Shown: in pieces, positions 8,567 through 16,703 of the stretch | How the letters are laid out: every line of letters starts with the position of its first letter | How positions within the stretch are numbered: the stretch's first letter is position 1 | Source of the DNA: a virus | IMG/VR virus record: IMGVR_UViG_3300044821_000088 | Coordinates: 1-35,088 of that record | Reading direction: 5' to 3' (one strand) | Length of the DNA: 35,088 nt | Notes under the pieces: generated by a model | Seen by the model: only the letters and a program-made list of their open reading frames with translations | Databases searched by the model: none | Told to the model about the DNA's origin: nothing | Position numbers and translations under genes: made by a program

Positions 8567-9076
8567 GTGGGACGAAGTCACAGGCTACCGGCCAACCTGA
8601 CCGCCGAGGAGAACGCCGAGGTCATCCGCGAGTCGTCGAAGCTGTTCACGCCCGAGCGGACCCAGGCGATCGTGACCTTCCTGCGCTCGGGGTCGTTCAT
8701 CGAGACCGCGGTCGCCGCGTCGGGCGTTTCGAGGTCCACCTTCTTCGTCTGGATGAAGCGCGGCGAGAAGGCGCACATGGGGAAGTTCAGGAAGTTCTAC
8801 CTGGACGTCCGCAAGGCGATGGCCGACTTCGAGATCGCGGCGGTCAACAGCATCCGCCGGGCCGGGGAGGAGAGTAGCTGGCAGGCCAGCGCGTGGCTTC
8901 TCGAGCGCAAGTTCCCCGACGAGTGGGGCAAGATCGAGCGCGTCGAGTCCACGGGCGCGAACGGCGGCCCGATCGAGGTCGCCGCCATGCGCGACCCGCG
9001 CGAGATGACGACGGGTGAGAAGCGCCGGTTGCTCGCCCAGCTTGACGCCGAGGACGCGGAGAAAGAGGACGAGTGA
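8567..9076 (+). CDS. terS: terminase small subunit
   Basis: The 169-residue protein has the small-terminase layout. An N-terminal helix-turn-helix (SFIETAVAASGVSRSTFFVW, about residues 43-62) is followed by a central helical oligomerisation region. The phrase ASAWLLERKFPDEWGK is typical of phage TerS and terminase-like DNA-binding proteins, and an acidic C-terminus would contact TerL. It would recognise the packaging site (pac or cos) on phage DNA. GTG start at 8567 without a clear ribosome site. Its stop overlaps the GTG of the large subunit gene. It diverges from the H1-like gene, so the 41 bases between them must carry both sets of signals. Confidence 0.8.
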   Translation: MGRSHRLPANLTAEENAEVIRESSKLFTPERTQAIVTFLRSGSFIETAVAASGVSRSTFFVWMKRGEKAHMGKFRKFYLDVRKAMADFEIAAVNSIRRAGEESSWQASAWLLERKFPDEWGKIERVESTGANGGPIEVAAMRDPREMTTGEKRRLLAQLDAEDAEKEDE

Positions 9077-10440
9077 ACGCCGCCGCCCGGCTCGACGCGC
9101 GGCTCCGGCTGAAGCTTGACAAGCGCGGCGAGGGACTGGACGCGTTCATCCGGCGGATGACGCCGCACCGGACGCCACCTCGGCACGTGGCGAAGATCAT
9201 CGCCCTGTTCGAAAAGGCGCTGACCGGGAAGAAGCCGATCAAGGCGGTCATCTCGATGCCCCCCGGTCACGCAAAGACGGTCACGGCGTGCAACGGGCTC
9301 GTCTGGTGGCTGACCAGGTCGCCGGCGGACACGCACGCCTATGGGACCTACTCGGACAGCCAGGCGCACGAGAAGTCGGTTCCCATGCGCAACCTCGCGC
9401 GCGCCGCCGGCGTGATCCTGTCCGAGGACACGAACGCCAAGGGGCTCTGGCGCACGACGTATGGGGGCGGGCTGATCGCCGGCGGCCGCGGATCTGGCTT
9501 CACCGGAAAGCGCGTGACCGGCGTCTGCGTGATCGATGACCCGTTCAAGGATCGCAACGAGGCCAATAGCAAACTGATCCGGGACGAGGTCTGGAGCTGG
9601 TACACCGACGTCATGCGCACCCGGCTCGAGGGCGCGTCAGAATTCGTGATCGCCACCCGGTGGCACGAAGACGACCTCATCGGCCGCCTGATCGCGAGCG
9701 ACGACGGCTGGGTCGTGATCAACTTCACGGCGCTGGCCGAGGACAACGACGCCATCGGGCGCGAGCCCGGCGAGGCGCTTTGGCCGGAGATGTTCCCGGT
9801 CGAAAACCTCGAGAGCATCCGCAAGACCGTCGGCGAGTTCACGTGGTCGGCGCTGTTCCAGGGACGGCCGGTTCCACGTGGCTCGAAGCTGTTCGGCGTG
9901 CCGCACTACTACGACCCGTTGCAGAAGCGACCTGACGGGTTCCGCCTCACGTTGTCCGCTGACCCGGCCGCCAGCGCGAAGACCTCGGCCGACTACAGCG
10001 CGGTCGTGGTGCTGGCAGAGTGGGGCTTCGGCGTCGAGCGCCGCGCACACGTCCTGTACGTCTATCGCGAGCAGGTCACGGTGCCGCAGTTCGCCCACGA
10101 CCTCGTGAACATTCAGCAGAAGTGGAGCAACACGCCGATCAACATCGAGGCGGTGGGAGCGTTCAAGGCGATCCCTCAGATGCTCCTCGAGCTTCGCCCC
10201 GATCTACTCATTGAGGAGATTCAGCCCGTCGGAGACAAGTTCACGCGCGCACAGGGCGTGGCCGCGGCGTGGAACCATGGTCGCGTGCTCGTGCCGCTCG
10301 ACAACCCGCCCTGGCTCGAGCCGTTCCTTGCCGAGATCACCGACTTCACCGGGGTCGGCGACCGGCATGACGACCAGGTCGATGCGCTGTCGGGCGCGTG
10401 GAACAACGGCGCGACGATGAACGTCTGGGACGTTCTATAG
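9073..10440 (+). CDS. terL: terminase large subunit (packaging ATPase/nuclease)
   Basis: The 455-residue protein has both TerL domains. The ATPase part carries a Walker-A-like MPPGHAKT (62-69) and a Walker B, VCVIDDP (151-157). The nuclease part has the RNase-H-like acidic residues in SADPAASAKTSADYSA near 295-310 and DRHDDQVDAL near 433-442. The protein docks on the portal, hydrolyses ATP to pump DNA and cuts the concatemer. GTG start coupled to terS. The length is normal for the family. The portal it must bind is encoded on the opposite strand 2.6 kb away, which is unusual. Confidence 0.92.
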   Translation: MNAAARLDARLRLKLDKRGEGLDAFIRRMTPHRTPPRHVAKIIALFEKALTGKKPIKAVISMPPGHAKTVTACNGLVWWLTRSPADTHAYGTYSDSQAHEKSVPMRNLARAAGVILSEDTNAKGLWRTTYGGGLIAGGRGSGFTGKRVTGVCVIDDPFKDRNEANSKLIRDEVWSWYTDVMRTRLEGASEFVIATRWHEDDLIGRLIASDDGWVVINFTALAEDNDAIGREPGEALWPEMFPVENLESIRKTVGEFTWSALFQGRPVPRGSKLFGVPHYYDPLQKRPDGFRLTLSADPAASAKTSADYSAVVVLAEWGFGVERRAHVLYVYREQVTVPQFAHDLVNIQQKWSNTPINIEAVGAFKAIPQMLLELRPDLLIEEIQPVGDKFTRAQGVAAAWNHGRVLVPLDNPPWLEPFLAEITDFTGVGDRHDDQVDALSGAWNNGATMNVWDVL

Positions 10441-12873: not shown

Positions 12874-13068
12874 GTGGCGCCGCGCTCGAAAGAGGTCTGC
12901 CTGTACGGCCACCCGTTCACCGAGGACAACGTCATCTGGCGCAACCGGCGGCACTTCGCGAAGCGGCGAGGCGAGTGGACGCGCTACCGGGTGCGCTGCT
13001 GCCGGCGGTGCTTCCGGCTGCGCAAGCGGCTGTCGGCCGAGCGGCGCCGCCGCGCTACCCCATCTTGA
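12874..13068 (+). CDS. small Cys/His and Arg-rich protein, HNH-like zinc fold
   Basis: The 64-residue product reads MAPRSKEVCLYGHPFTEDNV and IWRNRRHFAKRRGEWTRYRV, then CCRRCFRLRKRL. The C-x2-GHPF...N...C-x2-C arrangement is typical of the tiny zinc proteins related to phage HNH endonuclease metal sites, though the catalytic HNH residues are not complete. GTG start directly after the upstream TAG. Its last 14 bases overlap the 3' end of the convergent portal gene. Confidence 0.5.
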   Translation: MAPRSKEVCLYGHPFTEDNVIWRNRRHFAKRRGEWTRYRVRCCRRCFRLRKRLSAERRRRATPS

Positions 13069-15196
13069 GACGGCGCCTGGCCTTGCTCAGCGTCTTGTAG
13101 GGGCCACCGATCCGCTTGCCGTCGCGCATGACCAGCCACCCGGTGCCGTCGTGCTTGAAGGTGTCGCCGGCCATCCCGTCGGCGATGGTAGCGGTCGAGC
13201 TTGGCTCATTCACCACGTTCGCGTCCGGGTTCGCCGCCTTCCACTGGCTGAAGATGGTCTCAACGCCCTTGGCCATCGTCGCCTGACCGTCGGTCATCGG
13301 CGCCTTGGGGCCGTTCATGTGGATCACGCAGTCGGCGGTCACGAGGCCGGAGCGCAAGCCGCGCGCGGTCTGCACGCCTTCGATCACGTGCTTCGCTCCG
13401 ATGGCCCGCTGGCGGGCCGCAATGCTCGCCGGGGTCTGGTCCCAGTTGACGCCGCCTTCCGCCTCGGCGTCGCCGGTCAGCAGATCGTCGGTCGAGAACA
13501 CCGGGCGATCCTTCGCAAAGCTGGCGAGGGTCGTCTTTCCGTGTTTCGGGCCGCCGACGATGACGATGCTGCCGTGCGCGTCGAGGCAGTCCTGAAACCA
13601 TTTCGGGCAGGTCGTCGGCGCCGCGCTGTCGCCTGACTCCTTGGTCAACTGGCGCTCGCGCGAGACCTCGGCGGGGGCCGGCACATCCTTCGTGTTTGCG
13701 GCGGTGGCCGGTGGATTCGCGCCCTGGTTGGCGCTCGGCGCCGCGGCGGCTGCACCGGGAGCGAGGGGCTGGCCCGTCTTCGGATCGAAGTTGGCCGCCG
13801 GCGCGTTCGCTTCCTTCTCGGCCGCCTCGGCTTCCTGGTCGTCCTTCTCCTCGGCCTCTTCGACGTCCTCGTCCTCCATCGTGCGATAGACGCCGCGGTC
13901 CTTCAGTTCACGCGCGGCGAGCCCGCGGGAGACGACGCCGGCCGTGAGGTAGACGCCGTCCATCGTGCTCCGGTTCATGTCGCGCGTGGACGCCTCGACG
14001 TCGGACATCTGCCATAGTGGGTTGAAGGTGAGTTCGAAGCCCTCGGGCAGGCCGCCGAGAGCCGAGCGCACCAGCACCTCGTACAGGCGCATCAGCGGGG
14101 CGTGGAGCTTCGACTCCTGGTCACCGGCCAGGCGGTCGTAGTAGTTCCGAATATCCGCTTCGCCCGTGCTCGAGAGGCCGGCGGGGGACTGCCCGAAAAG
14201 ACGCGTGGTCGGAATGTCCGCGGCGCCCGACACGTCGATCATGAAGCGCACGAGGATCGCCTCCACGCCGCTGAACTGGCTGACCTTCTGCTGCCACGTC
14301 TCTTTCTCGGAGTCGAGCAACAGCGCCTTGTTCAGGGACTTGTTCATCATCCCAAGCTGGTACCGCTGCGCGATCTTCGAGTCCTGGCCGTTCATCGAGA
14401 GGGCTTGGACGAGGCCCTTGATCGAGATGATATCGACGTTGGCCTCGTGGAGCATCGAGCCGGCAGCGGAGCATGCGCCGTCGTAGTTCTGAACCGCGTT
14501 CAGGACGTGGAAAAGTTCGCTGTCGTCCCACATCGCGTTCTGCCGCCACTGGTAGTAGGGGAGTTCGCGGCCGGGCCAACGGACGACGCGCGTCCAGTGG
14601 ACCATCTGCCCGCTGTCGGCGATCGTGTACATGACCGGCTTGTTGTAGTTCGGCGAGGTGAGGTCCTGCTCGACGTCGACCACCGACGGGAAGCGCCAGC
14701 GGTCGAGCGTCACGAGGTTCAACAGCGAGCCCTTCTTGATCGAGTCGAGGTCCAGGGGCTGGGCCATGTCCTGGCCGTCGATCACCATGATCGTGCAGGC
14801 GCCGCCGTAGAGCCGCCCCCATTTCATCCCGGTGCGGACGCGCTGGCGAAACTCGAGGGCCTTCTCGGCGGCGTAGATGGCGTTCGCGTCCTTGTCGCCC
14901 TTGTCGCGCCCGTCCCAGGTGAGCGAGACCCACTCGCGGGTCATGTCCGCGACCGGCACGTCGACGATCTTGCCGGCGATCCAGGAGCCGCGGTACATGG
15001 CGTCCAGTTGAAGCTGGACCATCTGGATCGGGACGGCGTAGGTGCTGTACGCATTCTTGTCGCTGCTCGAGCCGAGCGCGCTGACCAGGTTCAGGAATCC
15101 GTCCATCGCTTCCTTCGGCGACGCGGGCGGCTTCCCGTCGGCGGCGGACACGGGACCGGCGGGCTGGACGATCTTCGGCGGGCGGCGCTTGCTCAT
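13055..15196 (-). CDS. portal protein (DUF1073-like) fused to a P-loop kinase-like domain
   Basis: The 713-residue protein has two parts. Residues about 30-440 resemble the DUF1073 portal family: AVPIQMVQLQLDAMYRGSWI, DVPVADMTREW, MKWGRLYGGACTIMV, IPTTRLFGQSPAGLSSTGE and DIRNYYDRLAG. This part should form the dodecameric DNA gate and the docking ring for TerL. After an acidic then Ala/Pro-rich linker (440-525) comes a second domain. It has a Walker A, IVIVGGPKHGKTT (544-556), STDD at 568-571 where P-loop kinases place substrate-binding residues, and KHVIEGVQTARGL near 602-614. The last residues, GWLVMRDGKRIGGPYKTL, form a short beta unit seen at ends of phage proteins. Most family portals end near 450-550 residues. 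The gene runs against all neighbouring head genes. Confidence 0.8.
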   Translation of the reverse strand: MSKRRPPKIVQPAGPVSAADGKPPASPKEAMDGFLNLVSALGSSSDKNAYSTYAVPIQMVQLQLDAMYRGSWIAGKIVDVPVADMTREWVSLTWDGRDKGDKDANAIYAAEKALEFRQRVRTGMKWGRLYGGACTIMVIDGQDMAQPLDLDSIKKGSLLNLVTLDRWRFPSVVDVEQDLTSPNYNKPVMYTIADSGQMVHWTRVVRWPGRELPYYQWRQNAMWDDSELFHVLNAVQNYDGACSAAGSMLHEANVDIISIKGLVQALSMNGQDSKIAQRYQLGMMNKSLNKALLLDSEKETWQQKVSQFSGVEAILVRFMIDVSGAADIPTTRLFGQSPAGLSSTGEADIRNYYDRLAGDQESKLHAPLMRLYEVLVRSALGGLPEGFELTFNPLWQMSDVEASTRDMNRSTMDGVYLTAGVVSRGLAARELKDRGVYRTMEDEDVEEAEEKDDQEAEAAEKEANAPAANFDPKTGQPLAPGAAAAAPSANQGANPPATAANTKDVPAPAEVSRERQLTKESGDSAAPTTCPKWFQDCLDAHGSIVIVGGPKHGKTTLASFAKDRPVFSTDDLLTGDAEAEGGVNWDQTPASIAARQRAIGAKHVIEGVQTARGLRSGLVTADCVIHMNGPKAPMTDGQATMAKGVETIFSQWKAANPDANVVNEPSSTATIADGMAGDTFKHDGTGWLVMRDGKRIGGPYKTLSKARRRLKMG

Positions 15197-15226
15197 GCCC
15201 TACGGTAGCGCGAGCGGCGCGTGCAG

Positions 15227-15403
15227 TCAGGACGCGCGCACGAGGTGGCCGAGCCCTTCGGCGCGCAGGGCGGCCTCGATGCGCTCACGCACGCCCGCCC
15301 GGGTCGGCTCGCCTCGGATCACCTTGCGCACGGTTCGGACGTCGGCGTTCGCGGCGGCCGCCACCCGGACGACCCTGTGATTCGCCGCTGTTGGAATCTT
15401 CAT
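15227..15403 (-). CDS. small LacI-type HTH DNA-binding regulator
   Basis: The 58-residue product starts MKIPTAANHRVVRVAAAANA and continues DVRTVRKVIRGEPTRAGVRE then RIEAALRAEGLG. VAAAANADVRTVRKVIRGE fits a LacI/TetR-style helix-turn-helix with its recognition helix near residues 22-32, and nothing else is present. It would bind DNA as a dimer. It lies just upstream of, and in line with, the portal gene, and diverges from the protease gene, so it could regulate either. A CTCAAAT-N10-ATTTGAG inverted repeat in the divergent region is a candidate operator. The longer minus frame from 15526 is ignored because it would run through that operator and the neighbouring start. Confidence 0.6.
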   Translation of the reverse strand: MKIPTAANHRVVRVAAAANADVRTVRKVIRGEPTRAGVRERIEAALRAEGLGHLVRAS

Positions 15404-15437
15404 GTTCCCATGATGGAAGCATGAAGCATGCAAGTCG

Positions 15438-15461
15438 CTCAAATACCGCTTGCGATTTGAG
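15438..15461. promoter_or_regulatory. operator-like inverted repeat
   Basis: CTCAAAT (15438-15444) and ATTTGAG (15455-15461) form perfect 7-bp arms with half-site centres 17 bp apart, suitable for a dimeric HTH protein. It lies between the HTH gene (minus) and the protease gene (plus). Just beside it are a tandem GAAGCAT repeat (15417-15430) and four CATG tetramers at 15401, 15409, 15420 and 15427. Confidence 0.4.
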
Positions 15462-15494
15462 GTTTTCGTCACCAGCGCCGAACACTCTGGGGGA

Positions 15495-16703
15495 ATGGGC
15501 ACCCGAATTTCTGTAGTCGACCTCATCGGATTGACCTCGCGGTCAATCGACGAAGACGGCTACATGAGCGCGCCGGCGGTCATCTCGACCTCGGACAACG
15601 TGCAGAAGTACCGGGCCGCCGACCTGGGTCTGACCGACCGACCGCCCGACGAGATGGTCGGGCTCTACCGGCCGACCGACGAGGTCATGGATCCCGAGAC
15701 GCTGGCCAGCTTCGACGGCAAGCCGATCACCATGAACCACCCGCAGGGGGGCGTCAGCGCGAAGAACTGGAAGCAGGTCGCGATCGGCGACGTCCACGAC
15801 GTGAAGGCCGCCGGCAAGAACACGGCGGCGCGTGTCGTCATTCGGGACTCGTATTCGGTCGGGCGCATCGCGAGCGGCAAGTCGGCGCTGTCGTGCGGCT
15901 ACAGCTTCGACCTCGATCTGACCCCCGGGGTGGCCAGCGACGGGACGCCCTACATCGGAGTTCAGCGGAAAATCCGCGGAAACCACACCGCGATCGTCGA
16001 CGTCCCCCGTGGTGGGCCGGTCTGTCGAATCGCCGACAACGCAGAGGAGAAGCCCATGGCGCTACGGAAGCTGGTACTGGACGGGATCGCGGTCGAGGTC
16101 GAGGACCGAGACGCGACCATCATCGAGAAGGCGATCGCCGTCGCTGACGCCGCCACGAAGGCCGCGCAGGACGCCGCGACCCAGGCGGGACAGGCCCTGG
16201 CGAAGGCCCAGGCCGACCTCGCCACCGAGCAGGCGAAGACGACCAAGCTGGTCGCCGACCACGCCGCCGCGCTCGCCGAGGTGACCGCCAAGATCCCGAC
16301 GCCGGCCCAACTCCAGGCGATGGCGACCGAGCTTTCGGTCGTCGTGGGAGACGCCGCCAAGCTGGCCCCCGCCGTGGTGCCCGCCGGCAAGTCGGCGCAC
16401 GCCATCCGCACCGAGACGCTGGCCGCCATCGTGGCCGACGGGGCCTCGACGGTGCGCCCGGTGGTGCTGGCCGTCCTCGCCGGCGTCGACGTCGCCAAGG
16501 CCGAGCCCGGCTCGGTCAAGGCCGCGTTCGACGCGTGCGTGGCCGCCGGGGCCGTGAAGGTCTCGGACGCCGCCGCGATCAACGCGCACAACGGCCGCGC
16601 GCTGTCGGTCGCCGGCTCGAGCGGGACCGCCCCCGCCAAGCTCACCGGCCGCGCGCTGGCGATGGCCAACATGCGAACCGCCGGCAATCCCGCCAAGGCG
16701 TAG
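15495..16703 (+). CDS. prohead protease/scaffold, DUF2213-like
   Basis: Of the 402 residues, about 1-190 resemble the DUF2213 family. DEDGYMSAPAVIS and a PTDEVMDPETLASFDGKPIT stretch are present. The MNHPQGG and VGRIASGKSALSCGYSF blocks are typical of the family's putative serine-type protease core. RKIRGNHTAIVDVPRGG follows. Residues about 195-265 are an Ala/Lys/Asp coiled coil, as expected of a scaffold that is digested during head maturation. The C-terminal Ala/Val-rich part ends GRALAMANMRT. I place the start at ATG 15495; a TTG at 15450 would also be in frame but lies in the operator-like site. It sits just before decoration and capsid genes, the usual position. Confidence 0.75.
   Translation: MGTRISVVDLIGLTSRSIDEDGYMSAPAVISTSDNVQKYRAADLGLTDRPPDEMVGLYRPTDEVMDPETLASFDGKPITMNHPQGGVSAKNWKQVAIGDVHDVKAAGKNTAARVVIRDSYSVGRIASGKSALSCGYSFDLDLTPGVASDGTPYIGVQRKIRGNHTAIVDVPRGGPVCRIADNAEEKPMALRKLVLDGIAVEVEDRDATIIEKAIAVADAATKAAQDAATQAGQALAKAQADLATEQAKTTKLVADHAAALAEVTAKIPTPAQLQAMATELSVVVGDAAKLAPAVVPAGKSAHAIRTETLAAIVADGASTVRPVVLAVLAGVDVAKAEPGSVKAAFDACVAAGAVKVSDAAAINAHNGRALSVAGSSGTAPAKLTGRALAMANMRTAGNPAKA

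Follow-up and report, generated by a model that had tools for sequence, protein, structure and literature searches.

A minimal kinase-like domain joined to a DUF1073 portal and to other head and packaging proteins of uncultivated phages

Introduction

In the virion of a tailed phage the portal has 12 subunits, with the C-terminus usually directed into the head. What purpose would a kinase-like domain serve at this end of a portal protein? The question is raised by a gene in the DNA analysed here, a virus contig of 35,088 bases (the window), in which an uninterrupted 713-residue reading frame runs from ATG to stop on the minus strand (13055-15196), the plus strand of the same interval containing stops in frame 1. 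An earlier note on the window had described a DUF1073-like portal at about residues 30-440, an acidic, Ala/Pro-rich linker, and a C-terminal P-loop domain with the motifs GGPKHGKTT and STDD; all of these hold, the linker lying at about residues 441-528.

Enzymes fused to phage head proteins are a published theme, as in MuF polymorphic toxins and polyvalent proteins (PMC5576092, PMC5512222, PMC9503650): PBECR, 2H and zeta-toxin-like domains are found on MuF and/or portal proteins (PMC5512222), and ART and Nudix domains have been added to this set (PMC9503650). A further association, which the earlier note had mentioned between DUF1073 portals and Acb1, was not confirmed, a literature search yielding nothing relevant.

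Results

Layout and conservation of the portal-kinase gene

The features of the locus are given below; L008 is a related virus contig, and AK9 is the best match in profile searches of PDB sequences, which matched mostly in the P-loop region.

13055..15196, minus strand: whole fusion gene, portal plus mini-kinase, 713 aa; open reading frame with ATG start and stop codon at 13055-13057
13877..15196, minus strand: portal domain, residues 1-440, DUF1073 / Phage_portal_3, core 63-409 (PF06381 E 8e-95, PHROG 146 E 2.6e-123)
13613..13876, minus strand: linker, low-complexity, acidic and Ala/Pro-rich, residues 441-528 (from the sequence; 53% identity to L008, gapped)
13172..13612, minus strand: predicted mini NMP-kinase-fold P-loop domain, residues 529-675 (AlphaFold pLDDT 88.7; structural matches; dN/dS 0.28)
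13529..13555, minus strand: Walker A / P-loop GGPKHGKTT, residues 548-556 (alignment of 45 relatives)
13484..13495, minus strand: STDD motif, residues 568-571 (alignment A6; family consensus HTDDL)
13379..13381, minus strand: Glu606 in VIEG after beta-3 (E in 45/45 relatives; HMM alignment to AK9)
13055..13171, minus strand: basic beta-beta-beta-alpha tail, residues 676-713 plus stop (79% identical in L008, dN/dS 0.23; strands and helix in the AlphaFold model)
15227..15526, minus strand: small HTH-like reading frame, at most 99 aa, in the same orientation as the fusion gene and upstream of it (HTH by eye only)
9073..10440, plus strand: putative terminase large subunit (TerL), on the strand opposite to the portal (reading frame named by eye, used as TerL seed)

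Residues 30-440 are those of a normal DUF1073 portal (for example Vibrio phage CP-T1, MW202455 gene, 47% identity): PF06381 matches residues 63-409 with 318 bits against a curated cut-off of 33.8, and PHROG 146 (portal) spans residues 28-525. The matches listed among phage records do not go beyond about residues 4-438, and no single place in any of the 1,856 records covers 80% of the query. L010, a DUF1073 portal of 40% identity to the window protein, is without the kinase extension. DUF1073 portals exist both with and without the mini-kinase. A search with the whole protein recovers the fusion at full length (residues 1 to 713) in two IMG/VR contigs, L008 and L009, at 69% identity; the two encode an identical protein and are counted as one virus. 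Neither chance nor a sequencing error can thus account for the fusion in the window, and the erroneous joining of two genes, against which the earlier note had cautioned, is excluded.

Codon comparison of the window gene with L008 gives dN/dS values of 0.22 in the portal and 0.28 in the P-loop domain; the linker, at 0.37, is the least constrained part of the gene, and the final 38 residues stand at 0.23. All of these are rough figures in view of the high synonymous divergence. The P-loop domain is under purifying selection, which has retained it since the two viruses diverged. No conserved internal start codon for a free kinase was found within the window gene. The 38-residue basic tail (13055-13171) is confined to the window/L008 lineage, where it is as conserved as the portal; a motif search of the window found no second copy of it.

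The surroundings of the gene are unusual for a head gene. Together with the HTH-like reading frame it forms a block (window 13055-15526, minus strand) that is antiparallel to the surrounding terminase, DUF2213-like and capsid-like genes (names given by eye), and the same antiparallel block is seen in L008/L009 (L008 5026-7393), with a similar HTH-like reading frame in the equivalent place (L008 5026-5298). No sigma-70-like promoter was found at the block. Related DUF1073 loci have the gene order portal, kinase, MuF; no MuF-like gene (PF04233) was found in the window record or in the 60-kb contig of L009.

Predicted fold and conserved residues of the mini-kinase

The last 191 residues of the window protein have no family model of their own in Pfam or PHROG. 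The domain search of the C-terminus alone that the earlier note had proposed does bring up P-loop families, all of them below threshold: PHROG 2071 'ATPase' is the best match (1.7e-4), followed by Pfam nSTAND3 and AAA_25 (about 0.01-0.02). PDB sequences gave no match to the window domain itself. AlphaFold predicts a P-loop fold for it with a pLDDT of 88.7, and for L048, a standalone relative of 128 residues, with a pLDDT of 95.6 and a pTM of 0.90. Foldseek matches both models to adenylate, shikimate and gluconate kinases and to hCINAP (best E 8.6e-5 for the window and 2.0e-4 for L048). In VIA-align, adenylate kinases come out on top for the window domain (Z 10.4, 125 aligned residues, rmsd 2.8) and for L048 (Z 10.2, 121 aligned, rmsd 2.8); these lists are filled by adenylate and related kinases and are no evidence against other families.

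As modelled, the domain is a minimal NMP-kinase-like core with a P-loop kinase fold. It shares with the NMP kinase-like superfamily (adenylate, shikimate and gluconate kinases, hCINAP/Fap7) the predicted core fold, the Walker A motif and an acidic residue after beta-3, but differs from it in size, the standalone mini-kinase having only about 128 residues and being shorter than the listed matches, at 10-20% sequence identity. It also lacks the separate NMP-binding and LID subdomains, with their conserved arginines, that characterize adenylate kinases: the model of the 128-residue L048 core has no insert of such a size between beta-2 and beta-3 or after beta-4. The earlier note had left the choice between a kinase and another NTPase, and had named zeta toxins, polynucleotide kinases and AAA-type folds for comparison. 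Zeta toxins are not among the Pfam matches of 46 relatives at E ≤ 0.01, nor are polynucleotide kinases, which appear in one weak Foldseek match (4jt2_B, E 8.5e-3); membership in either group is without sequence-level support from any family model at this threshold. An AAA-type ATPase is disfavoured because the structural matches are kinases, and the predicted fold together with the conserved residues fits a phosphotransferase better.

These residues are the ones expected of a catalytic site of the kinase type. Across 45 aligned relatives the first G, the P, and the G and K of GK in the GGP..GK Walker A are invariant, the window copy conforming to GxxxxGK[ST]; one position of the STDD site (HTDDL in the family) is D or E in 44 of the 45; and the P-loop Lys, the Asp/Glu after beta-2, the invariant Glu after beta-3 and an Arg on the next helix are all kept. 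The strongly conserved stretches of the family alignments are GGP..GK, the Glu after beta-3, the ensuing R.LRK helix, and Q..M.KG. In the profile alignment to AK9, WIVENFPLVREL pairs with the family's W-x-I-E-G, so that the invariant Glu stands where adenylate kinases have the Asp of their DGFPR motif. The window copy retains the P-loop Lys, STDD, the Glu, both helix Args, and the Gln, Met, Lys and Gly; on alignment it is a diverged member of the family, in which Trp52 and Lys72 (L048 numbering), nearly invariant elsewhere, are absent. L008 has in addition His in place of Arg68. Because of these replacements, specificity or activity may have drifted in the window and L008 kinases.

A family nearly confined to uncultivated viruses

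With the window C-terminus alone as query, no match was found in viral contigs; tblastn links it to phage record MW202476 (Manatee Spring) at 2e-4, and BLASTP of the domain against the relative encoded there gives 3e-11, with 34% identity across 114 columns. This relative is not fused: its gene overlaps the end of a portal gene of another type (DUF4055). MW202476 is the sole carrier found among 50,697 phage records. Successive searches of viral contigs returned 4, 61 and then 80 loci, the last scan giving 156 confirmed matches. The family comprises at least 93 viral contigs (distinct records, duplicates removed, the window counted), mostly with free genes of 120-150 residues. An HMM built from 45 relatives matches all 43 records searched at E 1.1e-33 or better, most of these records having supplied related sequences or been found with them. 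Pfam and PHROG models match the family weakly, the best being AAA_18 (E 2.7e-6) and phrog_2071 (1.8e-5). L022 and L041 form a divergent branch of the mini-kinases; the L022 copy adjoins a PHROG 1297 ATPase, distant from the terminase.

Bacterial and archaeal genome contigs from 84,980 species were scanned twice and gave 18 and 269 pattern matches, none of them confirmed, the limited sensitivity of pattern scans keeping this short of proof of absence; no relative was found on plasmids. The family is thus nearly confined to uncultivated viruses and nearly absent from isolate phages, as far as these searches reach. Both the family and its range of fusion partners appear to be new.

Fusion partners and gene neighbourhood

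The recurrence of the module, either free or joined to one of several proteins of the head and of packaging, goes beyond what the window alone could show. Fusions occur in 13 of the 93 contigs, 12 of them scored and the thirteenth being the TerS-like L091, in about ten architectures, the portals among them belonging to three Pfam families:

DUF1073 portal, kinase at the C-terminus: two lineages, the window with L008/L009, and L013 with L119 and L121
HK97-type portal (PF04860), kinase at the C-terminus: L039
Mu-type portal (PF06074), kinase at the C-terminus: L070
MuF-like head protein, kinase at the C-terminus: L037
MuF-like head protein, kinase at the N-terminus: L138
Terminase large subunit, kinase at the N-terminus: L105
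Terminase large subunit, kinase at the C-terminus: L135
TerS-like protein, kinase at the N-terminus: L091
Scaffold-like protein, kinase at the N-terminus: L140

An enzyme domain is thereby carried on a head protein in the portal fusions and in the two MuF fusions. DUF1073 apart, each fusion type is known from one metagenome contig. In the domain tree, in which few forks are resolved, the 13 fused rows require nine changes, only three of them forced by well-supported branches; that the partners differ argues better for repeated fusion. Among the fusions identified, none involved a replication, lysis or tail protein. Stop-to-stop extensions in L033, L051, L056, L063, L064, L099 and L124 resemble read-through frames of high-GC DNA and were not counted as fusions.

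Two further kinds of extended head protein were observed. The 811-residue protein of L138 (920-3352) continues past the mini-kinase and the MuF domain into a further C-terminal domain with a HipA-like NDDRHERNTLW...AIDNG stretch, a likeness seen by eye for which PDB and phage searches gave no match. In L014, L020 and L023, DUF1073 portals of about 770-800 residues have a long extra region past the portal core that is not a mini-kinase.

Free copies frequently overlap or abut the genes for TerL or for DUF4055, DUF1073, Mu-type and other portals. A programmed frameshift was weighed for the DUF4055 loci, whose kinase gene overlaps the portal in the +1 frame, but common descent can account for a shared frame and some copies have start codons near the domain, which makes an ordinary overlapping gene the simpler reading. 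Among 48 contigs of at least 30 kb, with neighbours labelled by seed-based phmmer and by representative Pfam/PHROG scans, the kinase is fused to, or lies within 1 kb of, a labelled packaging gene in 23. Random placement with a generously drawn packaging block leads one to expect 7.6, and 0 of 200,000 simulations reached 23; adjacency is thus about threefold above chance. At least eight contigs have the free gene at a distance of more than 5 kb from a recognised TerL.

Discussion

Judged from model and alignment, the mini-kinase is very probably an active phosphotransferase, and the window domain very likely is one or recently was. As the portal is an integral component of the virion, the kinase fused to it should be one too, and we consider it likely that the domain is present in the virion of the window phage; the virion location proposed in the earlier note is supported to this extent. 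Its suggestion that the domain could be ejected with the DNA is not, as portals normally stay in the virion and no sign of cleavage was found; nor is the action on host defence signals that it had raised.

The explanation we favour, at a probability of roughly 0.45, is by analogy with the enzymes on MuF and portal proteins: a virion-carried enzyme that would serve the phage when infection begins or during head filling. Given a portal of 12 subunits with the C-terminus usually into the head, each particle would contain about 12 kinase domains, tethered by flexible linkers on the inside of the packaging vertex. There they would transfer phosphate from ATP bound at the P-loop to an acceptor. That the target is the next host rather than a step of assembly is conceivable, at somewhat less than even odds. 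Virion carriage draws on the intact fusion kept in a second virus under constraint, on two models nearest to adenylate, shikimate and gluconate kinases with catalytic-type residues conserved, on the recurrence of head and packaging fusions and the excess of packaging neighbours, and on the published PBECR, 2H, Nudix, ART and zeta-toxin-like precedents (PMC5512222, PMC9503650). Like these, the window family places an enzyme domain on a portal or MuF protein, with genes near terminase and portal; unlike them, it has no family-model link to those domains, occurs also on TerL, TerS-like and scaffold-like proteins and at the N-terminus of MuF, and is found almost only in uncultivated viruses.

The partners TerL (L105, L135), TerS-like (L091) and scaffold-like (L140) are, however, not retained in the virion, so virion carriage cannot be the common denominator of the fusions. 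Against it also stand the normal retention of portals at ejection, with no cleavage site identified, the distant free genes in at least eight contigs, and the residues replaced in the window and L008 copies. The three non-virion partners suit instead an enzyme that acts at the packaging vertex while still in the producing cell, perhaps recycling ADP/AMP near the terminase motor or phosphorylating head proteins or DNA ends, with the tether to TerL, TerS, portal, MuF or scaffold serving a local job. Every identified partner indeed meets at the procapsid or packaging vertex, fusions to replication, lysis or tail proteins are not seen, and free copies are often found overlapping or right next to TerL or portal genes. 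We nevertheless regard this as unlikely: the gene is often among packaging genes anyway, so that the choice of partner may only mirror the neighbourhood, at least eight contigs have it over 5 kb away from TerL, and most phages package without a mini-kinase, which was found in 1 of 50,697 phage records. A related proposal, that the kinase is a recurrent accessory of the packaging vertex acting on motor, portal or DNA end during packaging, would explain its joining to TerL, TerS, portal, MuF or scaffold in unrelated phages, and is in our estimate doubtful.

Slightly more doubtful is the possibility that the tether has no function, a general nucleotide or metabolite kinase gene in a tight late operon fusing to its neighbour whenever a stop codon is lost. 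Fusions at either end of the partners, to virion and non-virion proteins alike, agree with this, as do overlapping gene junctions, which ease fusion, and the copies beyond the packaging block; it does not fit with an adjacency threefold above chance, or with the retention of linker and fused domain across deep divergence in both the window/L009 and the L013/L119/L121 lineages. An assembly or sequencing artefact uniting two genes is vanishingly improbable, single contigs being the source of most other fusion types but a second virus having the whole fusion and a separate DUF1073 lineage of three viruses being fused as well.

For the window phage, then, virion carriage is placed slightly ahead, with modest confidence. 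More broadly, the recurrence of the kinase on head and packaging proteins of unrelated phages points to a recurring job for a kinase at the phage head. Enzymes on portal and MuF proteins are an established theme, and the mini-kinase adds to it a family that has no model in Pfam or PHROG. Few virus machines have been studied as much as portal, terminase and MuF, and a kinase-like domain is repeatedly joined to all three; if it is active, either phage heads bring a kinase into the host, or packaging involves phosphotransfer besides the hydrolysis of ATP by terminase.
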